Positions 12,947-25,665 of a DNA stretch of 33,146 nt are shown here, in pieces. The DNA comes from Hyphomicrobiales bacterium (lineage in GTDB: Bacteria; Pseudomonadota; Alphaproteobacteria; Rhizobiales; BM303). The notes under the pieces were generated by a model that was given only the letters and a program-made list of their open reading frames with translations, searched no databases and had not been told where the DNA came from. How positions within the stretch are numbered: position 1 is the first letter of the stretch; each line of letters opens with the position of its first letter. Both the position numbers and the translations under genes were made by a program. The stretch covers positions 1 through 33,146 of the forward strand of contig PKTQ01000352.1 of the NCBI GenBank assembly GCA_002869085.1. The letters are read 5' to 3'.

Positions 12947-13134
12947 ATGGCTTATGGTTAATACTGCGTTCCGCAGATGGTGGATGGTGCTGGAAAGAGG
13001 GCCTGATATCCGCGGCGACGCGGAATTGAGCTTGTCATAACATGCTGTCACACATGATTGTGATGGAAAATTTCCAGCGAATTGGCGTAAGGGGCCTATA
13101 TTCCACTCAGGCTATCGTGGAAGGCGTAGATCGC

Positions 13135-14670
13135 ATGATTATTCAGTCTTATTTGAGTCCGGTTGCCGGCCTGGTGCTGGCCGCGGCGGCTTGTGTCCTG
13201 GCGCCGGCGCCGCTCTCGGCGCAGGGGGTGGGGGATGCCGAATGGTTCGGCCCGGCCGCCAATGGTCTGATCGACCAGCCTTCGCGCCGGGTTTACCGGA
13301 AGCCGGCCGCGCCGCGCACCGCCGCCAGGCGGGCGCCGTCCTCATTGCGCGATGGGCAGCCGGTGCATGCGCGCAAGTCCTATCAGCGCCGCCGCGTGGT
13401 CCAGGCCGCCCGCTACCGCACACCGCGTCTGAGCAGTTCGGCCAAGGAATGGGACGATTCGTTTGATACTTCGACCATCCGCCACATGGCCCCGGTCTAT
13501 AGCGATCCGCTGGGCAATGATGTCACCCGCATGCCGGACAAGCCCGGTGGCGGCCTGTTCCAGGGCAGCCTGGGGCGCTCGCGGATCGGCTCCAAAACCC
13601 CGGTGATCAGCCAGAACACGCTCGATGCCATGCAGGCGGCGATCGCCCGTTATGAATATCTGGAGCGGCGCGGCGGCTGGAAGCCGATTCCGGCCGGGCC
13701 GGATCTGCGGGTCGGCTCACGCAGCCCCCGGGTCGGTCTGCTGCGCGAGCGGCTGATGGCCACCGGCGATCTGCGCCAGCGCAGCGGCAATTCGAACTCG
13801 TTCGATGCTTATGTCGGCCAGGCGGTGCAGCATTTCCAGAAGCGCCATGGCCTGCTGGCAACCGGATATGTCAATAGCCGCACCCTGAAAGCGCTTAATG
13901 TGACCGCCAGCGCGCGCCTCACCCAGCTTCGGCTCAATCTCGAGCGCCTGTCGCAGATGGTGGGCTCGACTCCCAAATCCTTCATCATGGTCAATATCGC
14001 CGCGGCGGAGCTGGAGGCGGTCGAGAGCAATTCGGTGCGCTCGCGCCATCGCACGGTGGTCGGCAAGACCGACCGGCCCTCGCCGCTGATCAGCAGCAAG
14101 GTGGTGCAGGTCAATTTCTATCCGTTCTGGCATGTACCGCAGAGCATTGTGCGCAAGGATCTGATCCCCAAGCTGAAGACCGATCCCGGTTATCTGGCCC
14201 GCACCAACACGAGGGTGCTGAAGAGCTGGGGCGGCGAGGAGATCGACCCGGCCACGGTCGACTGGAACGATCCGGCCGCCGAGGAGCTGAAATTCCAGCA
14301 GGATCCGGGTCCGTCCAATGCGATGGGCTTTGTGCGGATCAATTTCCCCAACAGCCATGCGGTCTATATGCATGACACGCCCACCAAGGGCCTGTTCAGC
14401 CATGAATACCGGGCCTATAGCTCGGGCTGCATTCGGATTCAGAATGTGCAGGACCTGGTCGGCTGGCTGTTGCAGCGCGAAAAGGACTGGTCGCCGTCCA
14501 AGGTCAATCAGACCATCAATTCCGGCGAGAGCGTCGATGTGAATCTGAAAAACCCGATGCCGGTCTACTGGACCTATTTCACCGCCTGGGCGCAGCCTGA
14601 TGGCACGGTGCAGTTCCGCCGCGACCTTTACAGCCGCGACGGGGTCGGTCAGTTGGCGGCCAATTACTGA
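13135..14670 (+). CDS. L,D-transpeptidase with peptidoglycan-binding domain (YcbB/LdtP-like), secreted
   Basis: Signal peptide MIIQSYLSPVAGLVLAAAACVLAPAPLSAQG; PG-binding VQHFQKRHGLLATGYVNSRTLKALN; YkuD HDTPTKGLFSHEYRAYSSGCIRIQN. Confidence 0.9.
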   Translation: MIIQSYLSPVAGLVLAAAACVLAPAPLSAQGVGDAEWFGPAANGLIDQPSRRVYRKPAAPRTAARRAPSSLRDGQPVHARKSYQRRRVVQAARYRTPRLSSSAKEWDDSFDTSTIRHMAPVYSDPLGNDVTRMPDKPGGGLFQGSLGRSRIGSKTPVISQNTLDAMQAAIARYEYLERRGGWKPIPAGPDLRVGSRSPRVGLLRERLMATGDLRQRSGNSNSFDAYVGQAVQHFQKRHGLLATGYVNSRTLKALNVTASARLTQLRLNLERLSQMVGSTPKSFIMVNIAAAELEAVESNSVRSRHRTVVGKTDRPSPLISSKVVQVNFYPFWHVPQSIVRKDLIPKLKTDPGYLARTNTRVLKSWGGEEIDPATVDWNDPAAEELKFQQDPGPSNAMGFVRINFPNSHAVYMHDTPTKGLFSHEYRAYSSGCIRIQNVQDLVGWLLQREKDWSPSKVNQTINSGESVDVNLKNPMPVYWTYFTAWAQPDGTVQFRRDLYSRDGVGQLAANY

Positions 14671-15403: not shown

Positions 15404-15422
15404 GGCGCTTTTGAGCGCTTAA
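15402..15422. terminator. Short bidirectional hairpin between convergent HPP gene and rnfA
   Basis: AGGCGCT-TTTG-AGCGCTT, 6/7 stem. Confidence 0.35.
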
Positions 15423-16006
15423 TGCGAGCCGCCGAGCCCGGCAAAACCCATAAAAGCCAGCGACAGCATGCCGCCCAGCATCAGGCTGAGGGCGGCGCCT
15501 TGCACCGCGCCCGGCACATTGGCCAGAGACAGCTTTTCGCGCAGGCCCGCCATCAGCACGATGGCCAGGGTGAAGCCGACGCCGGCGCCGATGGCGTAAA
15601 CCAGCGACTGCAGGAAATTATATTCCTTGAAGGTCTGGAACAGGGCGAGACCAAGAATGGCGCAATTGGTGGTGATGAGCGGCAGGAAGATCCCGAGCGC
15701 CCGGAACAGGGCCGGGGTGAATTTCTTCATGGTCATTTCCACCAGCTGCACCGCCGAGGCGATCACCGCGATATAGCTGATCAGGCGCAGGAACTGGATG
15801 TCGAAATGGTTCAGCACCAGATTGATGCCATAGGCGCAGGTGGAGCTGACCAGCATCACGAACATGGTTGCGAGCCCCATGGGAAAGGCGGTGTCGAGCT
15901 TGCCGGAAACGCCGAGAAACGGGCACAGGCCCAGAAACAGCGCCAGCACGAAATTGTTGATCAGCACCGCATTGAGGAAAATGAACGATAAGCTGTCAGG
16001 CTGCAT
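15419..16006 (-). CDS. rnfA: Ion-translocating ferredoxin:NAD oxidoreductase subunit RnfA
   Basis: LINNFVLALFLGLCPFLGVSGKLDTAFPMGLATMFVM; TTNCAILG; conserved Cys pair. Confidence 0.97.
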   Translation of the reverse strand: MQPDSLSFIFLNAVLINNFVLALFLGLCPFLGVSGKLDTAFPMGLATMFVMLVSSTCAYGINLVLNHFDIQFLRLISYIAVIASAVQLVEMTMKKFTPALFRALGIFLPLITTNCAILGLALFQTFKEYNFLQSLVYAIGAGVGFTLAIVLMAGLREKLSLANVPGAVQGAALSLMLGGMLSLAFMGFAGLGGSH

Positions 16007-16646
16007 GTTTCACCTCCTCGGATTTGGCTGCATCCGCGCGGCTGCGGCGGACATATTCGAAGATCAGCAGCCACATGCCCAGAATGATGAAGCCGCCCGG
16101 CGGCAGGATCATCACCACCCAGGGCTCGAAGCTGGGGCCGAACAGGTCGATGCCGAACAGGGCGCCAGCGCCCAGCACCTCGCGCACCACACCGATGCAC
16201 AAAAGGGCCAGGGTGAAGCCGAGCCCCATGCCGGTGGCATTGACCACGGTGCGCGCCAGGGTGTTCTTCGAGGCGAAAGCCTCGGCGCGGCCCAGAATGA
16301 TGCAATTGACCACGATGAGCTGGATGAAGGCGCCCAGCGCGTTATAGAGATCGAGCGAAATGGCCTGGATGGTGTAATCGACAATGGTGACGAAGGTGGC
16401 GATGATCACGATATAGGTGGCGATGCGCACCTGTTTGGGGATGAAATTGCGCAAGATAGAGATCAGCGCGCCCGATGTGAGCAGCACGAAAGTGGTGGCC
16501 AGCCCCATGGCCAGCGAATTCATGGCGGTGTTGCTGACCGCCAGCACCGGGCACATGCCGAGCAGCATCACAAAGACCGGGTTTTCGCGCCACAGGCCTT
16601 CGGCAAAGGTGTCCCAGGTGATTTCCGTTTTGGGTTTTCGGCTCAT
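15996..16646 (-). CDS. rnfE: Ion-translocating ferredoxin:NAD oxidoreductase subunit RnfE
   Basis: ENPVFVMLLGMCPVLAVSNTAMNSLAMGLATTFVLL; VVNCIILGRAEAFASKN; start set to MSRKPK at 16646. Confidence 0.97.
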   Translation of the reverse strand: MSRKPKTEITWDTFAEGLWRENPVFVMLLGMCPVLAVSNTAMNSLAMGLATTFVLLTSGALISILRNFIPKQVRIATYIVIIATFVTIVDYTIQAISLDLYNALGAFIQLIVVNCIILGRAEAFASKNTLARTVVNATGMGLGFTLALLCIGVVREVLGAGALFGIDLFGPSFEPWVVMILPPGGFIILGMWLLIFEYVRRSRADAAKSEEVKHAA

Positions 16647-17344
16647 TTCTCGGCCTCCGGCTTGGGCGGATTGTCGCGCAGGATCGCCAGATGCGGCACG
16701 ATTTTCGGCAGCAGTCTCTGCCCGGCCTGATCGAGCGCCTTGCCAACCGCATTCGAGGAAATGGTGGCGCCGGATATGGCATCGATCTGCCACGGGTCGG
16801 TCTTGGTGCCGTGCTTGACGGTGACGATCGGGTTGGCGAGGGCGGTGCCGTCAGCGTTCAACTTGGCGTCCAGGGCCTCGAAATTGGCCAGGAAGTCCTG
16901 ATTGCTGAGGATCTTGTCGCCGAGCCCCGGGGTTTCGACCATTTTCAGCACCTTGATGCCGCGAATGCACTGGCAGGCCGGGTCATAGCCATAGAGCAGA
17001 TAGATCATGCCGGCATAGCCCTGGGCGCCGGCATTGATGGCCACGCCGAGCAATTTGCCGTCCTTGTCATAGCCCGCATAGACGCGCTCGCCGCTCATGC
17101 CCTTGGCATAGGGGGTCAGGCTGTCTTTGCCGACCACATAGGTGCTCTGGCTGACGGCGCCGGGCACCACCTGAAACACTGCCGCCTCGATGGCGGCAAG
17201 CTGATTGGCCTCGATGGCCGGCTTGGTGAGCTGATAGACCATCACCACCAGCAGGCCCGACAGCATGGCGATGCCGGTCAGCACCAGCAGCATGGGCAGG
17301 GTGGGGGCAGCCTGACGCGCTGCCTCGGGAGCGGGCGCACTCAT
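16643..17344 (-). CDS. rnfG: Ion-translocating ferredoxin:NAD oxidoreductase subunit RnfG (FMN-binding)
   Basis: Single N-terminal TM; VETPGLGDKI; flavinylation motif SGATISSNAV; start MSAPAPEAARQ at 17344. Confidence 0.95.
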   Translation of the reverse strand: MSAPAPEAARQAAPTLPMLLVLTGIAMLSGLLVVMVYQLTKPAIEANQLAAIEAAVFQVVPGAVSQSTYVVGKDSLTPYAKGMSGERVYAGYDKDGKLLGVAINAGAQGYAGMIYLLYGYDPACQCIRGIKVLKMVETPGLGDKILSNQDFLANFEALDAKLNADGTALANPIVTVKHGTKTDPWQIDAISGATISSNAVGKALDQAGQRLLPKIVPHLAILRDNPPKPEAEK

Positions 17345-18402
17345 TGGCTTTCTTCCTTCTTGCGCACGGTGCCGAACACCTTGGGCTGGGTATAGCGGTC
17401 GATCAGCGGCGTGGAGGCATTGCCAAGCAGGATCGCATACATCACCCCTTCGGTGAGGCCGCCAAACAGGCGGATGATCACGGTAAGAAACCCGATCAGG
17501 GCGCCATAGATGATGACGCCTCGTGTGGTGAGGGGCGAGCCGACCATGTCGGAGGCCATGAACCAGGCGCCGAGCATCAGGCCGCCCGAGGTGAGCACGA
17601 ACAGGGGGTCGGGATAGCGGACCGGGTCCAACAGATAGAAGGGCAGGTCGGTCAGCACGGCGCCGCCCATCACCGCCACCGGGATGCGCCAGTCGAGCAT
17701 GTGGCGAAACGCCAGATACAGCCCGCAAACCAGAATCAGCAGCGCCGGGGTCTCGCCGGCCGAGCCGGCGGTGCTGCCGATCAGCAGGTCGTTCAGGGGG
17801 GCCTGGACATGCTGGAATTTCTGCAGGGCAAGCGGGGTGGCGCCGCTGAACCCGTCGAGCGAGACGGCTTTGACCCAATCGGCGATGGCCGGCGGGCTCA
17901 GGAAGGGCGGGGTGAATGTGGTGGGGATGAAGCTCGTGAAGCGCCCCTCGAACAGGCCGGGGGCCCAGGTGGTGATGGAAACCGGGAAGGCGGCCTGCAC
18001 GAAGGCGCGGCCGATCAGCGCCGGGTTGAACACATTATAGCCGATGCCGCCGAACAGGGCCTTGCCCATGGCGATGCCGACAAAGCCGGCCACGGCGGCC
18101 ATCCACAGGGGAAAGCCGGGCGGCAGGGTGAGGGCCAGCAAAAGGGCGGTGATCGTCGAGCTCCAGTCCCCCAGCGGATTGGGACGGCCCGACAGATAGG
18201 CGAACAGGCGCTCGGTCCCCAGGCAGGTGGCCATCACCACGGCGGTGAGGGCGATCACGCTGAGCCCGAACAACCACACCGCATAGGCCAGGATCGGTAG
18301 CAGCGCCAGCACCACATTCAGCATGATGTCGGCAACGCTCTGATGCCGGGCGATGTGCGGCGAGGTGCGGACCTCGATCTGCGGTTTCTTGAATATGGGC
18401 AT
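17341..18402 (-). CDS. rnfD: Ion-translocating ferredoxin:NAD oxidoreductase subunit RnfD
   Basis: Multi-TM; SGATP flavinylation motif (LDGFSGATPLAL); GGIGYNVFNPALIGRAF; start MPIFKKP at 18402. Confidence 0.96.
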   Translation of the reverse strand: MPIFKKPQIEVRTSPHIARHQSVADIMLNVVLALLPILAYAVWLFGLSVIALTAVVMATCLGTERLFAYLSGRPNPLGDWSSTITALLLALTLPPGFPLWMAAVAGFVGIAMGKALFGGIGYNVFNPALIGRAFVQAAFPVSITTWAPGLFEGRFTSFIPTTFTPPFLSPPAIADWVKAVSLDGFSGATPLALQKFQHVQAPLNDLLIGSTAGSAGETPALLILVCGLYLAFRHMLDWRIPVAVMGGAVLTDLPFYLLDPVRYPDPLFVLTSGGLMLGAWFMASDMVGSPLTTRGVIIYGALIGFLTVIIRLFGGLTEGVMYAILLGNASTPLIDRYTQPKVFGTVRKKEESQ

Positions 18403-19751
18403 CAGGCCTTTGCCTTCTCGCGGTTCATGGCTTTGGCAATGCGGAAATATTGCACCAGCGGAATATTGGACGGGCAGACATAGGAGCAGCAGCCGCATTC
18501 GAAACAGTCGGTGAGATGGAACCGGCTCTCCATCTGCTCATATTCGCGCTTGGCAGCGAGCTGGCCCATTTCGGACGGGTTGAGATACATGGGGCAGGCC
18601 TGGACGCAGCGGGCGCATTTGATGCAGGGGTAGATATTCTCGGCTTCTTGTTCGATGGCCTTTTCATTCAGCACCAATATGCCGGACATGCCCTTGGTCA
18701 CCGGCGTGTCGAGGGATGAGGCGGACATGCCCATCATCGGCCCGCCGAGGATGATTTCGGCGGCCTCGCCTTCAAAGCCCACTTCCTCGAGCAGGAAGCG
18801 GATCGGCGTGCCGATCGGCACCCGGTAATTGCCGGGGCGCTTGATGCCGGCGCCGGTGACGGTGATCACCCGCTCGATCAGCCCCTCGCCGCGCGGCAGC
18901 AGATAGCCTAGCTGGGCCAGGGTGCCGACATTGCTGACCACCACGCCGACACTGGCGGGCAGGGCGCGCGGCGGCACTTCGAGCCCGAGCAGGGAGCGGA
19001 TCAGCATTTTCTCGGCCCCTTGCGGATATTTGGCCGGCACCGCCTGCACGGTGATGGGGTCATCCGGTTCGATGGCGGCGGCAACGGCATGCACCGCGTC
19101 CATCTTGTTGTCCTCGATGCCGATGATCGCCTGCTTGGCCTCGGTGGCCTCAAGCGCATAGCGCACGCCGCGGATCAGATCCTCGGTCTGCTCCAGCATC
19201 ACCCGGTGATCGGTGGTCAGGAATGGCTCGCATTCGGCGCCATTGACCACCAGGGTATGGATTTCATATTCCTGCCCCGGCGGCAGGGTCATCTTGACAT
19301 GGGTGGGGAAGGCGGCGCCGCCCAATCCGACCATGCCGGTTTCCTGGATGGCGCGCAGCAGATCGGTGCGCGGCAGGATATGCAGCGGCCGCTTGACCGA
19401 ATAGAGCACCTCCTGGGTCGAGCCGTGATAGACGTCGATCAGGATGGCCCGCGTCTTGGGGCCGCGGGCGGTGGGCATCAGCTCGATACCGCGCACGATG
19501 CCGGTGGCCGGCGAGTGCAGCGGCACCGAGACGAAATCGTCCGCTACCGCCACCGGTTCGCCGCGCACCACCTCCTGGCCCTTCTTGACGATGGGCAGGG
19601 AGGGCTTGCCGATATTCTGATCCAGGTGCAGCACCAGCCGGTCCGGGAACGGAAACCTTTGAATCGGTCTGCTCGCCGTATCGCCCTTATGCGGGTCCGG
19701 ATGGATGCCGTGCCGGAACGAGGCGCGGAGGAATGGTTTTAAAAATCCCAT
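18402..19751 (-). CDS. rnfC: Ion-translocating ferredoxin:NAD oxidoreductase subunit RnfC
   Basis: GLGGAAFPTHVKM, NGAECEPFLTTDH, two Cys motifs CIKCARCVQACP and CFECGCCSYVCP. Confidence 0.97.
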   Translation of the reverse strand: MGFLKPFLRASFRHGIHPDPHKGDTASRPIQRFPFPDRLVLHLDQNIGKPSLPIVKKGQEVVRGEPVAVADDFVSVPLHSPATGIVRGIELMPTARGPKTRAILIDVYHGSTQEVLYSVKRPLHILPRTDLLRAIQETGMVGLGGAAFPTHVKMTLPPGQEYEIHTLVVNGAECEPFLTTDHRVMLEQTEDLIRGVRYALEATEAKQAIIGIEDNKMDAVHAVAAAIEPDDPITVQAVPAKYPQGAEKMLIRSLLGLEVPPRALPASVGVVVSNVGTLAQLGYLLPRGEGLIERVITVTGAGIKRPGNYRVPIGTPIRFLLEEVGFEGEAAEIILGGPMMGMSASSLDTPVTKGMSGILVLNEKAIEQEAENIYPCIKCARCVQACPMYLNPSEMGQLAAKREYEQMESRFHLTDCFECGCCSYVCPSNIPLVQYFRIAKAMNREKAKA

Positions 19752-19779: not shown

Positions 19780-22700
19780 TTACTGGAATTTTTCCGCGCG
19801 CTTGATCAGTTTCTCAACGTCTTTCTCACCCATATTGAAGGGCGTTCCGGGATGAATGCATCCTGCGGTGCATTTCTCAGCGGCCCGGACGATGTCCTTA
19901 TAGGGTCCGCCGGTCGGGTTGGCCACTTCCGCCAGTTTATCGGCGTTATAAACGAAGATGTTGGGATTGATCTGGGTGCACTCATCGCAGGTGGTGCATT
20001 CAGGCGTGTCAATCCACACCGGCTCGTAATCGGCCGGAGCGCCGGCCACCGCGGCGCCATTGCCGCCATTCGCCGCCGGCGCGCCGCCGGCCAGCGAGGC
20101 GCCGAGGTCGATCGCCTGGCCCGAGCCGGACAGGCCCAGCAGGGTCGCCGCCAGGGTGCCGGCCATCTCCGACTTGGTCTTCGAGATCACCGCATCGACA
20201 TCCACCTTGTTCATCTCGCCGGCAATGCCCTTGAGCTGACGCCAGAACTCACGCCGCTCCAGAGCCGACAGCACGATTTCGTGCGAGCAGATGACCCGGG
20301 TGAGCTGGTTGTTGTTGTCGGTGGCCCAGATATAGGGATAGAGACCCTCGGTGTCCTCTTCGTCCATATCCAGGAATTCGTGCAGCGGCACCATGGTGTC
20401 GTTCCACGCCGCCCTTGGCGCCTTGCGGAAATGTTTGCGGAACCGGCCTTCGGTGGCGGCGAAGTCGGCAAAGGTGAGCGGCACCTCCATCTGATCCGGT
20501 TTACCCTTCTCGTCGAGGAAGTCGATCTTGTAGCTCGGCCAGTCCTGATCGATCTGCGGATTGCCTTCAAGATCAATGCATTCTTCAAGGGTGGTGCCCG
20601 CATCGGGGTCGAACCTGACCAGCGGATAGGCGCGGGATTCCACCGCCAGCCGCGAATGCTTGTCGGCCATGTCGTCGCCGATGCCATGCTCGGGCGGGCA
20701 CACCGAATAGATGTTGAACAGGGCCGGGTTGCGGCTGTTGAGGCCGTCGATATAACCCTCGATCAGATGGGTCGGGTTATGGATCGAGCCCTGCAGGATA
20801 TAGGAGGTGCGGTGGGAAATGCCGATCAGCGCCATTTCCTTGCGCTTCTCGCGCTTGCCGTGCCAGGCCTTGCCATAGGGGCTCATATCCGCGATCTGGG
20901 AGATGAAGCCCGAGGTGCAGGCCTGACCGCCAGTGTTGGAATAGACCTGGGTGTCCACCACCAGCACCTTGATCGGCATGCCCGAAGCGAGCGCGCGTGA
21001 CAGGTTCTGGAAGCCGATGTCATACATGGCGCCGTCGCCGCCGATCGACACGACGGGCGGGCACAGAAGCCATTCTTCCTCGGAGAACTGGTTCCAGTTG
21101 AACCGGTTGAAGAAGTCGGCATGCTCAGCCGGATTATATTTGCCGGCCAGCTCCAGCTCGGCCATGCGGATGGCCCGGAAACCGTCGGACATCTTGGCCA
21201 TGTGGCCCTCGAAGATGCCCATGGCCACCGACGGGCTGTCCTGGAACAGATGCGAGGTCCAGGGGAAGGGGTAGGGGTTGTAGGGATAGGTCGAGCCCCA
21301 CACCGAGGTGCAACCGGTGGCGTTGACGACGCCCATTTCGGTGCGGCCACGGCCGGTCGGCCCTTCCAGGTAACGCCATTTGAGATCGCGCAGCTTGTTG
21401 AGCAGATCGGTCGACCATTTCAGCCAATCGCGGTCGAGCACGGTTTCGGTGCTCTTCACATCGAGCTTGCCGGACAGTTCGGCAAGGGTGAGGTCGTGAT
21501 CCTCGCTGTCGGCCACGGCGGCGTCGATGCTGGTGATGTCGTTCAGATTGACCCCATCGGCCAGCTTCAACTTGATATGGGTCTCCAGCCGGTTGATCAG
21601 GCCGTCGAGATATTCCAGATGCTTCTTCACCCGGGGCTGGACCAGCGCGGTCACGGTCGAGGTGAACAGGTGGATGACCGCCTTTTCGCCGCAGCCGAGG
21701 CAGGCGCCGTCGCCGCAGACCATGGAATTGTAATTGTGCTTGTCGAGCAGCAGGGTTTCCAGCGCGCCGATCTTCTCGTCGAGATCATCGATGCGGCTGA
21801 ATTGCTCGGCGGTGCTGGGCAGTTTCTGCCAGAAATCCCAGTCGGCCCGGAGCCGCGTGGTCTGCTCTTCGGTCTGGCGCACCGGCTCGAGGGCCAGGTC
21901 GTCGCAGACTTCGACGCACATCATGCAGCCCTTGCAGGTATAGGGGTTGACGGTGATCGAGAACAGCCCGCCCGAGCCTTTGGCCTTTTTCTCGCGGGTG
22001 CTCCAATAGGGCTTGGTGATCGCCAGTTCGAAACTGCCGAGCGCGGTCTTCAGCCGGGTCAGCTCGTCCTCGAATTTGGCGCGCTCCTCGCCTTCGAGTT
22101 CGCTGGCGTCGATATGATCGTCAATGGCGGTCAGAAGCTGGTCGCGCACATTGATCGCCTCGCCGGCATCGGCCAGCTCGGCGCGAAGGGCCTTTTCGAT
22201 GGCCCGGGTCTCGCGGCGCAGATATTCGGTGGCGCCGGCCATGTTCTCGACCTCGGTGATGGCGGAGGCGAACACTTCGGAGATGGTGTTGACCAGGCCG
22301 GGAATGGCCGCGTCGGGGCAGACGGTGTAGCAGTCGCCGCAGGCTGTGCAGTTTTCCGGCACCCATTTCGGCACTTCGAAGCGGATATTGGTCATGTCGC
22401 GGAACACGCCGGTGGAGGCGGGGATCAGGGACAGGGCCTGATAGGGATCGGCGAGATTTTCCTCGCCCTTGCCGGTGGCGTAGAAATGGCCGGTCTGTTC
22501 CCAGAAGCGGTGCACGTCCGAGACGGCGCCCTTGCCCGAGGGCAGGTTCTTCAGCATCACCGGCAGGCTGGTGTCCTTGCGGATGATCTCTTCTTCCGCC
22601 TCGTCCATCGGCATGTTGGTGAGCTCGTGGATCTCGTCGAAGCCACGGCGCACCACGCGCACATTGTCCTCGACCACATTCTTGCCCTTGGAGCCGAATT

Positions 22701-24735
22701 TCTCGTTGAGCTGGTCGGTGATGGCGGCGAACAGTTTCTTCTCGTCGAGGCCGGCGCGCTCCATCAGGGGCGAGGCGGCGAAGAAGGCGCCCTGGAAGGC
22801 GTTGCCCTGCATGCGCAATTGCAGCTCGGCATTGCTGGCCTCGTCCTGGGCGATCTTGAACCCGTCGACGAAGAACACGCGAATCTTGTTGTTGATGATC
22901 ATCTGCCGGGCATATTTGGGGAAGCTGTTCCACAGCTCATTCGGGTCCTCCAGGCCGGACTGGATGATGAACACGCCGTTTTCCTTCAGCCCCATCAGCG
23001 GGTTGGAATGGCTGAACACATTGGGATCTGGCGAGAGCACCACATCCACATGGTGGTATTCGCAGTTGAGCGGAATGGGCTCGGGCGCGGCGGACAGGTA
23101 ATAGGTGGTGGGCTGGCCCTTTTTCTCGGAGCCGTATTTGGGGTTGGCCTTGATCTCATAACCCAGCAGTTCATACAGGGTCATGGCAAGGTTCTTGCCG
23201 GTGGTGATGGCGCCCCAGCCGCCGACCGAATGCATGCGCACGGTGATGGCGCCTTCGGGCAGCAGGTCCGGGTTTTCCGAGCCACGGACCGACATGTCGC
23301 CGATATCGGGATAGGCCTCGAGCAGTTTCTGCAGGTGGACTTCCTGTTTCGGGGTGAAGGCGTTCTCGCGGGTAAAATCAATCGACAGATAGAAGAAGCC
23401 GAGCTTCCTGCCCTCGGGCAGCATGTTCTCGACCGCGCCGATCAGCGCTTCGGGCTGCAGATCGCGGCTGCCGAGGCCATAGGCGCCGGAATAGAGCGTG
23501 GGCACATCGTCGAAACTGCGATAGGCGTCATAGTCCGGATAGGGCAGCTTCTGCTGCAGGCTGCGGCCTTTGACATTGGCGGCGCGGCCGTTTTCGATCG
23601 CTTTGCCGATGGCGGCGCGAATCTCGCGGACTAGGGGCAGGTCTTCGGCCAGGGGCTGGTCGGTGCGCTCAAGCACAGCCACGCCCTTCTTGCCCTTCAG
23701 GGCGTGGGTGATCAGGGCGCCGGGGAAGGGGCGGAACATGGTGACGTCGAGAACGCCCACTTTCAGCTTGCGGGTCTTGCGCAGATATTCGGCGATGGCC
23801 ACGGCCTGGGGGATCATCGAGCCCATGCCGCAGATCACGTAATCGGCCCGGTCGATATTGGTGGTGGCGATGCGGTTATAGCGCCGGCCGGTCAGATTGT
23901 AATATTCGTCCATCACCCCGTCGACGATGTCTTCGATGTGGTCGTAGAAATAGGGGCGCTGGGCGGCCACGGTCTGCATGAAGGAGTCCTGGTTCTGCAC
24001 CACGCCCGAGGTAACGGGGTTGTCCACGTCCCACAGGCTCGGCACCCGGCGGCGCTTTTCGCCATAGATCATTTTCTGGGCCGGGGTGGGCGAGTCGATC
24101 ATGTCGTCGGGCAGGCCGAGAAATTCGGCGATCAGCTCGCGTTCGGGCACCATCACCGGCTCGATCAGATGGGTGGTGAGAAAGCCGTCCTGGGCCACGA
24201 TGGCCGGGGTCAGCGAAAGCTCGGCGGTTTTGCGGGCAATCAGGTTCAGGTCGGCAGCGCCCTGGGCATTGTTGGCGAAGACCTGGAAGAAGCCGGTATC
24301 GTCGACGCAGTGATAATCGTCATGGCCGGCATGCACATTGAGGCTGGCCTTGGTGATGGCGCGGCAGCCCATATTCAGCACATAGGGCAGGCGCTTGCCG
24401 GCGGCGGCATAGAGCGATTCGTGCATGAAGGCGATGCCCTGGGCCGACGAGAAATTGGTGGAGCGCAGACCCGACATGGACATGCCGGCGGTGACCGCGG
24501 CGGCGGCATGTTCGGATTCCGGCTCGATGAACACCAGCGGCTTGTTGGACACATTCATATGGCCCTTGGCGGTTTCCTCAGCCCAATATTCGCCCATCTG
24601 GGTGGACGGAGTGATCGGATAAGCCCCGGCGGCATCCGATGCCTCACGTTCGCACATGATGACGGCGCTGTTGCCGTCGAGCGCCATGCGCGTACCCGGA
24701 TATTTCAGGTTCTTTTTTTCTGATTTGCCAAACAT
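19780..24735 (-). CDS. Pyruvate:ferredoxin (flavodoxin) oxidoreductase, 1651-aa variant with C-terminal ferredoxin-like domain
   Basis: AYPITPSTQMGEYWAE; CTACGDCYTVCP and CKGCMMCVEVC; CGDGACLGCGEK; SIGGDGAMYDIGFQNLSRALASG; VDTQVYSNTGGQAC; C-terminal CTTCDEC...EKCTAGCIHPG. Confidence 0.93.
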   Translation of the reverse strand: MFGKSEKKNLKYPGTRMALDGNSAVIMCEREASDAAGAYPITPSTQMGEYWAEETAKGHMNVSNKPLVFIEPESEHAAAAVTAGMSMSGLRSTNFSSAQGIAFMHESLYAAAGKRLPYVLNMGCRAITKASLNVHAGHDDYHCVDDTGFFQVFANNAQGAADLNLIARKTAELSLTPAIVAQDGFLTTHLIEPVMVPERELIAEFLGLPDDMIDSPTPAQKMIYGEKRRRVPSLWDVDNPVTSGVVQNQDSFMQTVAAQRPYFYDHIEDIVDGVMDEYYNLTGRRYNRIATTNIDRADYVICGMGSMIPQAVAIAEYLRKTRKLKVGVLDVTMFRPFPGALITHALKGKKGVAVLERTDQPLAEDLPLVREIRAAIGKAIENGRAANVKGRSLQQKLPYPDYDAYRSFDDVPTLYSGAYGLGSRDLQPEALIGAVENMLPEGRKLGFFYLSIDFTRENAFTPKQEVHLQKLLEAYPDIGDMSVRGSENPDLLPEGAITVRMHSVGGWGAITTGKNLAMTLYELLGYEIKANPKYGSEKKGQPTTYYLSAAPEPIPLNCEYHHVDVVLSPDPNVFSHSNPLMGLKENGVFIIQSGLEDPNELWNSFPKYARQMIINNKIRVFFVDGFKIAQDEASNAELQLRMQGNAFQGAFFAASPLMERAGLDEKKLFAAITDQLNEKFGSKGKNVVEDNVRVVRRGFDEIHELTNMPMDEAEEEIIRKDTSLPVMLKNLPSGKGAVSDVHRFWEQTGHFYATGKGEENLADPYQALSLIPASTGVFRDMTNIRFEVPKWVPENCTACGDCYTVCPDAAIPGLVNTISEVFASAITEVENMAGATEYLRRETRAIEKALRAELADAGEAINVRDQLLTAIDDHIDASELEGEERAKFEDELTRLKTALGSFELAITKPYWSTREKKAKGSGGLFSITVNPYTCKGCMMCVEVCDDLALEPVRQTEEQTTRLRADWDFWQKLPSTAEQFSRIDDLDEKIGALETLLLDKHNYNSMVCGDGACLGCGEKAVIHLFTSTVTALVQPRVKKHLEYLDGLINRLETHIKLKLADGVNLNDITSIDAAVADSEDHDLTLAELSGKLDVKSTETVLDRDWLKWSTDLLNKLRDLKWRYLEGPTGRGRTEMGVVNATGCTSVWGSTYPYNPYPFPWTSHLFQDSPSVAMGIFEGHMAKMSDGFRAIRMAELELAGKYNPAEHADFFNRFNWNQFSEEEWLLCPPVVSIGGDGAMYDIGFQNLSRALASGMPIKVLVVDTQVYSNTGGQACTSGFISQIADMSPYGKAWHGKREKRKEMALIGISHRTSYILQGSIHNPTHLIEGYIDGLNSRNPALFNIYSVCPPEHGIGDDMADKHSRLAVESRAYPLVRFDPDAGTTLEECIDLEGNPQIDQDWPSYKIDFLDEKGKPDQMEVPLTFADFAATEGRFRKHFRKAPRAAWNDTMVPLHEFLDMDEEDTEGLYPYIWATDNNNQLTRVICSHEIVLSALERREFWRQLKGIAGEMNKVDVDAVISKTKSEMAGTLAATLLGLSGSGQAIDLGASLAGGAPAANGGNGAAVAGAPADYEPVWIDTPECTTCDECTQINPNIFVYNADKLAEVANPTGGPYKDIVRAAEKCTAGCIHPGTPFNMGEKDVEKLIKRAEKFQ

Positions 24736-24765: not shown

Positions 24766-25665
24766 CTAACTTAGAGGCAAGGACTTCTTGCGGATAATGC
24801 GTTTGGATTCACGCCCCTTGCGGATGCCGGCTTTGCCGTCGAGCCAGACAATGGCGCCGGTGGGGCAGCGCTCGGTGGCGACCGGCGAAGCCAGGGCGTT
24901 TTGAGAGTAATCGATGACCGCCAGATGATTCTCTATCTTAATCAAGCCATCGGGCGAGTCCACCGCGCATCGCTCACAGGCGGTGCAAGCCACCTCGCAG
25001 GCGGATTCGGCCAGTTCGTCATTCTGCAGATTGGCGCAGGCCACCCATAATTTGTGGCTGACCGGATGCAGGGAAAACAGGTTTTTGGGGCAAACCTCGA
25101 CACAGTCGCCGCAGGCGGTGCACAGATCCTCGCTGACCACCGGCAGGCCGTTCCGATCCATGGTGATGGCGTCGAAATCGCAGACATCCTCGCAATCGGC
25201 CAGGCCCAGACAGCCCCAGACGCAGGATTTGGGGCCGCCGGCGACAATCGAGGCGGCCTGGCAGGTGTCCAGCCCCTCATAATGGGAGCGGTTGGAGGCG
25301 ACATGGTTGCCGCCGGCGCAGGCGAGCCGCGCCACCACTTTTTCCACATCGCCCGCATCGACCCCCAGCAGCCCGGCGATTTCCTCACGCGCTTCGCTGG
25401 AGGAGACGGTGCAATTGGCCGGCACCACATCACCCTTGATCAGGGCCTCGGCAAAAGGATGGCAGCCGGCGGTGCCACAGGCGCCGCAATTGGTGGCGGG
25501 GAGCAATTCCTCGACCTCGCCGATGCGCGGATCCTCATAGACCCATAAAAAACGGTTGGCGATGGCCAGGGCCCCGGCCAGCACGAGCCCCAGGGCCGAC
25601 ATGAACATGACGGCGTAGAGAATCAATGACGAATCTGCCTGTTCCATAACCGAACCTGCGGTCAC
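24766..25665 (-). CDS. rnfB: Ion-translocating ferredoxin:NAD oxidoreductase subunit RnfB, long multi-cluster form
   Basis: N-terminal TM; LLPATNCGACGTAGCHPFAEAL; CVWGCLGLADCEDVC; CTACGDCVEVCPKNLF; CTACERC; RCPTGAI. Alternative start MEQADSS at 25647. Confidence 0.95.
   Translation of the reverse strand: MTAGSVMEQADSSLILYAVMFMSALGLVLAGALAIANRFLWVYEDPRIGEVEELLPATNCGACGTAGCHPFAEALIKGDVVPANCTVSSSEAREEIAGLLGVDAGDVEKVVARLACAGGNHVASNRSHYEGLDTCQAASIVAGGPKSCVWGCLGLADCEDVCDFDAITMDRNGLPVVSEDLCTACGDCVEVCPKNLFSLHPVSHKLWVACANLQNDELAESACEVACTACERCAVDSPDGLIKIENHLAVIDYSQNALASPVATERCPTGAIVWLDGKAGIRKGRESKRIIRKKSLPLS

Follow-up and report, generated by a model that had tools for sequence, protein, structure and literature searches.

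A PFOR with helical insertions and a fused ferredoxin tail encoded within an Rnf operon: a candidate built-in partner of a distinct Rnf lineage

In the usual description, Rnf is a pump that receives its electrons from soluble ferredoxin. The locus considered here raises the question of what a pyruvate-oxidising enzyme, and one that carries a ferredoxin of its own, might be doing in the middle of an operon for such a pump. The locus is found in a 33,146-nucleotide stretch of contig PKTQ01000352.1 from a Hyphomicrobiales bacterium (assembly GCA_002869085.1), and this whole stretch is referred to below as the window. The gene of interest, a pyruvate:ferredoxin oxidoreductase (PFOR) gene at 19780-24735 on the minus strand, lies between rnfB and rnfC, and the operon order is rnfB-PFOR-rnfCDGEA on one strand. 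Separated from the PFOR gene by 30 bp, rnfB (24766-25665) encodes a protein of 299 aa with 20 Cys that matches the NCBIfam PRK07118-type RnfB (E 7e-66) and exceeds the TIGR01944 cut-off. On the other side, after a gap of 28 bp, there is rnfC (18402-19751; 449 aa; TIGR01945, E 3e-145, over the cut-off), followed by rnfD (17341-18402; PF03116, E 3.5e-102), rnfG (16643-17344; TIGR01947, E 7e-29), rnfE (15996-16646; TIGR01948 over the cut-off) and rnfA (15419-16006; TIGR01943 over the cut-off). All of these are on the minus strand, and the ATG start codons of rnfD, rnfG and rnfE are at 18402, 17344 and 16646, respectively. The operon shares all six rnf genes with the known Rnf complex (RnfABCDGE), RnfG scoring just under its cut-off (101.2 bits vs. 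102). It differs from standard Rnf in the order B-PFOR-C-D-G-E-A, of which the PFOR gene is a constant member, and in the RnfC of approximately 450 aa, which belongs to a lineage separate from the conventional proteobacterial RnfC. Convergent with the operon, and outside the present finding, is a gene for an L,D-transpeptidase (YkuD) with a peptidoglycan-binding domain (13042-14670, plus strand).

A preliminary description of the window, made from the letters alone, had read the gene as a 1651-aa PFOR with insertions and a fused C-terminal ferredoxin-like domain. This was borne out: the open reading frame starts with ATG, has the reported length and contains every motif that had been quoted. 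Pfam recognises POR_N (aa 32-271, 23923-24642; 157.8 bits vs. a gathering cut-off of 27), PFOR_II (aa 297-379; 50.9 vs. 27), the POR or gamma domain (aa 505-700, 22636-23223; 103.7 vs. 27.4) and TPP_enzyme_C (approximately aa 1227-1274), placing the protein in the PFOR superfamily. To these can be added a two-cluster ferredoxin domain (aa 796-944, 21904-22350), the TPP domain (aa 1134-1375, 20611-21336) with GGDGAMYD, NTGGQ, Cys1142 and Cys1346, and an enlarged C-terminal domain (aa 1376-1505, 20221-20610; median identity to the query 0.58), which comprises 130 aa in the window PFOR vs. 80 in tailless two-gene PFORs. An ungapped alignment with the Desulfovibrio africanus enzyme (7plm_A, offset 11) equates T42, E75 and R125 of the POR_N domain with T31, E64 and R114, positions with catalytic roles. 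GGDG and N1267 (in NTGGQ; N996 in D. africanus) are also present and conserved across the family. About 590 candidate relatives were found, of which at least 79 were aligned at full or near-full length for conservation counts, and the idea that the architecture is peculiar to the genome of the window was rejected on these numbers. The 12 Cys of the three [4Fe-4S] clusters of the body are invariant in 79 of 79 relatives: 796/799/802/806 and 934/937/940/944 in the two-cluster domain, and 1012/1015/1142/1346. With the TPP site, the pyruvate-contact residues and all 12 body cluster Cys in place, the enzyme is predicted to be intact.

The single-chain PFOR/NifJ enzymes of D. africanus (1b0p/7plm) and Moorella thermoacetica (6cin) have the POR_N, PFOR_II, POR, two-cluster ferredoxin and TPP domains, the catalytic residues and the 12 Cys in common with the window PFOR, but the latter is about 450 aa longer, the additions being two insertions, the enlarged C-terminal domain, a linker and the tail. 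Against the curated equivalog for single-chain PFOR, TIGR02176, it scores 395.3 bits. As this is far under the cut-off of 911, the window PFOR is assigned to a PFOR subfamily of its own, outside the standard NifJ enzymes.

Both helix-like insertions seen earlier proved to be real. Insertion (i) (aa 816-910, 22006-22290; median identity 0.39) lies within the two-cluster domain and is without a counterpart in the Moorella PFOR (1171 aa), where 17 residues (702-719) face query residues 812-912, a gain of about 83 aa. Insertion (ii) (aa 1026-1133, 21337-21660) separates the TPP-proximal cluster residues Cys1015 and Cys1142, and here query residues 1025-1134 (109 aa) face seven Moorella residues (822-829), which gives about 102 extra aa. 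In the AlphaFold2 model (45-sequence alignment, mean pLDDT 76) the first insertion forms three to four helices and the second one 47-residue helix together with shorter helices. A fold search with residues 772-1651 of the model recovered PFORs with poor global superposition (TM about 0.39, rmsd about 12 Å over 790 columns), the relative positions of the domains being unreliable.

The C-terminal domain is followed by a variable region (aa 1506-1572, 20020-20220) of low pLDDT that ends in an Ala/Gly-rich linker. The linker had been noted before and is confirmed here: the region ranges from 56 to 79 aa in Rnf-linked relatives and is the least conserved part of the PFOR, with a median identity to the query of 0.29 vs. 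0.67 for the tail behind it. The tail itself (aa 1573-1651, 79 aa, 19783-20019) matches Fer4_13 at aa 1575-1628 (Pfam, E 4.8e-6, 27.6 bits vs. a cut-off of 24.5), and a profile search of the PDB with the last 112 aa found D. africanus ferredoxin I (FdI; 1dax, E 2.5e-10). The preliminary description had allowed that the tail might model without a plausible cluster site. Modelled alone, it reaches a pLDDT of 92.9, its best fold match is FdI again (1fxr, TM 0.85 by target length, rmsd 0.8 Å), and four conserved Cys (1580/1583/1586/1622) are available as cluster ligands. All 79 relatives have the first three; Cys1622 is present in 77 of them, both exceptions being proteins truncated at contig ends. 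Conservation of the tail next to a variable linker, together with the retention of its Cys, is far beyond chance. A decayed or cluster-less tail is rejected by the Cys conservation, the pLDDT and the FdI fold, and a fifth residue, Cys1626, was rejected as a ligand, being V or I in many relatives. With CxxCxxC, a distal Cys and this fold, the tail can be assigned as a genuine one-cluster [4Fe-4S] ferredoxin of the FdI type, as judged from sequence and model.

D. africanus FdI (1dax/1fxr; Fer4_13) resembles the tail in sequence, fold and CxxCxxC...C pattern, but it is a free protein, whereas the tail hangs on the C-terminus of the PFOR through a flexible linker. FdI is a known partner of D. africanus PFOR, and for this reason the tail resembles a carrier of the enzyme that has become covalently attached to it. 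Engineered ferredoxin tethers have been reported to improve PFOR-fed electron flow in a manner that depends on linker length, with an optimum (PMC2847965). Two loci show breaks at the linker. In the Solemya velum symbiont (L071:14400-15100) the tail is out of frame with the PFOR body, the break falling within the linker; the sequence may be in error here, or the tether may truly have been lost. In G686:C1:2168651-2168893 (within L169) the tail occupies a short frame of its own apart from a pseudo-PFOR.

How constant is the association with Rnf? The 80 closest relatives among the approximately 590 candidates (62-71% identity) come mostly from Gammaproteobacteria, including betaproteobacterial orders, with some Alphaproteobacteria and SAR324 as well as bins labelled Acidobacteria, Spirochaetaceae and Kiritimatiellae. 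Where these have enough flanking DNA, rnfB always precedes the PFOR gene (76 of 76) and rnfC always follows it (66 of 66). One SAR324 bin (L048) has an ORF between rnfB and the PFOR gene and another, encoding an oxidoreductase-like protein of approximately 460 aa with MKKDVIVIGGGI, between the PFOR gene and rnfC (L048:14856-16247). As a guard against the bias of a best-80 sample, 274 evenly sampled Gammaproteobacteria genomes were searched with the long PFOR and with RnfC. The long tailed PFOR was present in 15 of them, and the identical 15 genomes hold the top tier of RnfC (51-62% identity). The RnfC identity ladder is gapped: a second tier (43-47%) is occupied by exactly six of the 274 genomes, and more than 100 others have only the conventional RnfC, with lower scores. 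Directly downstream of the PFOR gene, rnfC is found in 13 of the 15 genomes; in the remaining two the PFOR gene lies close to the end of its contig, and another contig has the matching type of RnfC at its very start. The suggestion that some gammaproteobacterial long PFORs are not linked to Rnf (L134, L144) was dismissed, as these are such contig-end cases. In one of them, genome G688, unrelated genes follow the PFOR gene, and a true operon break is possible there. In Alphaproteobacteria the long PFOR is rare, the genome of the window being the only one among 289 sampled.

The six second-tier genomes (G686, G747, G751, G811, G862, and G863) belong to four families, two overlap with the 15, and among the 274 they are exactly the genomes that carry a sister operon of the rTCA type. 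Its order is korA, korB, the C-terminal half of a pseudo-PFOR with a tail, rnfB and a second PFOR-like protein, and then, where the contig permits, sucC, sucD, rnfC and rnfD. The RnfC proteins linked to PFOR and those linked to rTCA genes share a branch that excludes conventional RnfC (support 100/100). Each sister operon has a single tail, like the operon of the window, but the tail is found on the KorAB-linked subunit just upstream of rnfB. The tail, the insertions and the Rnf lineage are homologous to those of the window, but the PFOR body after rnfB differs in being a tailless pseudoenzyme. This second PFOR-like protein (1258-1599 aa; L164, L165, L166, L167, L168, and L169, e.g., L166:2794-7515, minus strand) is without YPITP, the catalytic GGDG, NTGGQ, all four TPP-proximal Cys and the tail, and it keeps eight of eight ferredoxin-domain Cys and both insertions. 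By its residues it is catalytically dead, and catalysis in the sister operons falls to KorAB. The persistence of a dead PFOR after rnfB is best explained by a structural and electron-relay role of the PFOR body in Rnf. Endoriftia has an rTCA cluster with Rnf, and its "PFOR-like" gene and dimeric korAB fall together under H2S limitation (PMC11636981); these are presumably the genes of the sister operon.

Tails and insertions occur outside Rnf operons as well. In family f181 (eight genomes), which probably represents Magnetococcia, a PFOR of approximately 1680 aa has both insertions and a diverged four-Cys tail with no rnf gene adjacent, and at the loci examined a protein of approximately 960-980 aa with NfnB-like and NfnA-like domains is encoded directly downstream (L124:3747-6617, minus strand; also L125, L126, and L127). 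In three Alphaproteobacteria, whose genomes are without a close RnfC, a KorAB-linked tailed pseudo-PFOR is beside an NfnB-like gene (three of three) and an NfnA-like gene (two of three). NfnAB, the NADH-dependent ferredoxin:NADP+ oxidoreductase, is an alternative partner of tailed proteins in these two groups; it is a cytosolic flavoenzyme and not a membrane ion pump like Rnf, and none was seen in the window. A further KorAB-adjacent pseudo-PFOR (L170:8152-11070, plus strand) carries three tandem ferredoxin tails with Ala/Pro-rich linkers between them, and neither an rnf nor an nfn gene was found in the approximately 19 kb examined around it. The tailless two-gene PFORs beside sdh and sucCD have neither insertion, and no rnf or nfn neighbour was found for them.

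These comparisons modify the original reading of the tail as a tethered carrier handing electrons directly to RnfB or RnfC. The ferredoxin nature of the tail, its match to one RnfC lineage in 15 of 15 genomes and the near-constant order rnfB-PFOR-rnfC stand in its favour; an exclusive tie of the tail to Rnf is rejected, Nfn-linked and KorAB-linked proteins having tails too. The preliminary description would also have been refuted by finding length and insertions to be common in PFORs not linked to Rnf, and on this point it is borne out only in half. The tailless two-gene PFORs are without the insertions, whereas f181 has the length and both of them. The presence of tail and insertions thus goes with a ferredoxin:NAD(P) oxidoreductase as partner: Rnf-linked and Nfn-linked proteins have them, and tailless two-gene PFORs do not. 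The tail is better read as a putative tether to whichever ferredoxin:NAD(P) oxidoreductase is co-encoded, in this case Rnf.

Our preferred explanation, which we consider reasonably probable, is that the products of rnfB-PFOR-rnfCDGEA work as a single unit: PFOR would be a subunit of a specialised Rnf ion pump, with the tail ferrying electrons from one to the other in either direction. The TPP site would interconvert pyruvate and CoA with acetyl-CoA and CO2, and electrons would pass along the three [4Fe-4S] clusters that are usual in a PFOR body to a fourth one in the tail. On its flexible linker the FdI-type tail could then swing to the RnfB or RnfC side, so that the pump and the pyruvate reaction would exchange low-potential electrons with no need of a free ferredoxin. 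A docking surface for Rnf is probably offered by the helical insertions. The domains, the intact catalytic and cluster residues, the ferredoxin identity of the tail, the genomic pairing and the dead PFOR are computational results; from them we infer that PFOR physically binds Rnf, that electrons go straight to RnfB or RnfC and that the insertions take part in docking. The indirect grounds for binding are the constant gene order, the exact co-occurrence and the dead PFOR of the sister Rnf. A wider proposal, which we advance tentatively and with somewhat less confidence than would make it an even bet, is that this is a distinct Rnf lineage with a 2-oxoacid oxidoreductase as permanent subunit, i.e., a ferredoxin-tethered pyruvate:NAD+ oxidoreductase and ion pump that may be reversible as an ion-gradient-driven pyruvate synthase, and that in the sister rTCA operons the PFOR is a dead electron-relay scaffold joining KorAB to Rnf.

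Membership of one operon can reflect co-regulation alone, and a soluble pool of carriers is just as conceivable as the acceptor of electrons from the tail. The most serious alternative is a soluble PFOR whose tethered relay speeds the exit of electrons to ferredoxin or flavodoxin in solution, which would serve nitrogenase, biosynthesis and Rnf alike, the operon merely co-regulating two steps of a pathway. Classic Rnf accepts soluble ferredoxin, tails do occur with non-Rnf partners, and the triple-tailed protein of L170 has no rnf or nfn gene in the approximately 19 kb around it. We nevertheless regard this explanation as unlikely, as it is hard to see, without a structural role, why the long PFOR should match one RnfC lineage genome for genome and why a dead PFOR should be retained after rnfB.

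Even less probable is a substrate other than pyruvate, which would make the protein an Rnf-linked oxidoreductase for 2-oxoglutarate or for a broad range of 2-oxoacids. The low TIGR02176 score (395 bits) would fit such an activity, as would the replacement of the catalytic unit by KorAB in the sister operon. Against it stand the single-chain PFOR domain order and the best PDB matches, the intact residues matching D. africanus T31, R114 and N996, and a separate KorAB pair encoded elsewhere in the genome of the window; the two-subunit KorA/KorB arrangement itself is not that of the window PFOR, which is a single chain. Pyruvate is the likely substrate on these grounds. A last alternative, very improbable in our view, is that the tail carries no electrons and mainly caps the PFOR clusters, either as a structural element or as protection against oxygen. 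A precedent exists in the protective C-terminal extension (domain VII) of D. africanus PFOR, and aerobic or microaerophilic life is common among the hosts. Against this, the tail retains all four of its cluster ligands and has the FdI fold (rmsd 0.8 Å), its linker is of considerable and varying length, and in rTCA-Rnf and KorAB-Nfn operons it is on a different, non-catalytic subunit.

If PFOR and Rnf do form one machine, it should be reversible in principle. The pyruvate/acetyl-CoA couple is roughly 180 mV below NAD+/NADH, a gap that an ion-pumping Rnf can work across in either direction. The genome of the window also encodes pyruvate dehydrogenase E1 and RuBisCO, which makes a purely oxidative role less necessary, and for this reason we lean slightly towards a machine that in this organism often acts as an NADH- and ion-gradient-driven pyruvate synthase. 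In Kentron symbionts the PFOR gene ranks with those of highest expression, and the enzyme has been interpreted as a pyruvate synthase (PMC6593406).

The position of the gene was known before. According to the passages found of the paper on the S. velum symbiont, PFOR is located there between rnfB2 and rnfC2 and pyruvate was proposed as the electron donor of Rnf (PMC4287430); this rnf2 operon (L071) is of the same type as that of the window. The same passages mention neither the tail, nor the insertions, nor the exclusive pairing. A literature search, which left most subscription journals outside its range, found no description of a fused-ferredoxin PFOR, the insertions, a PFOR-Rnf complex, the exclusive pairing or the dead PFOR. 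We regard the system described here as a genuine variant of both PFOR and Rnf, one that is conserved and has attracted little notice.

The role of the Rnf complexes of Allochromatium vinosum was called "entirely unclear" in its genome paper (PMC3368242). If the reading proposed here is true, the extra Rnf clusters of such genomes would gain a concrete and testable role. The hosts concerned would be purple sulfur bacteria, sulfur-oxidising symbionts and related microaerophiles, in which tethering instead of diffusion would keep low-potential electrons from leaking, including to oxygen. An Rnf lineage with a built-in substrate dehydrogenase and ferredoxin would then amount to a new respiratory entry point or to a gradient-driven CO2-fixing machine.
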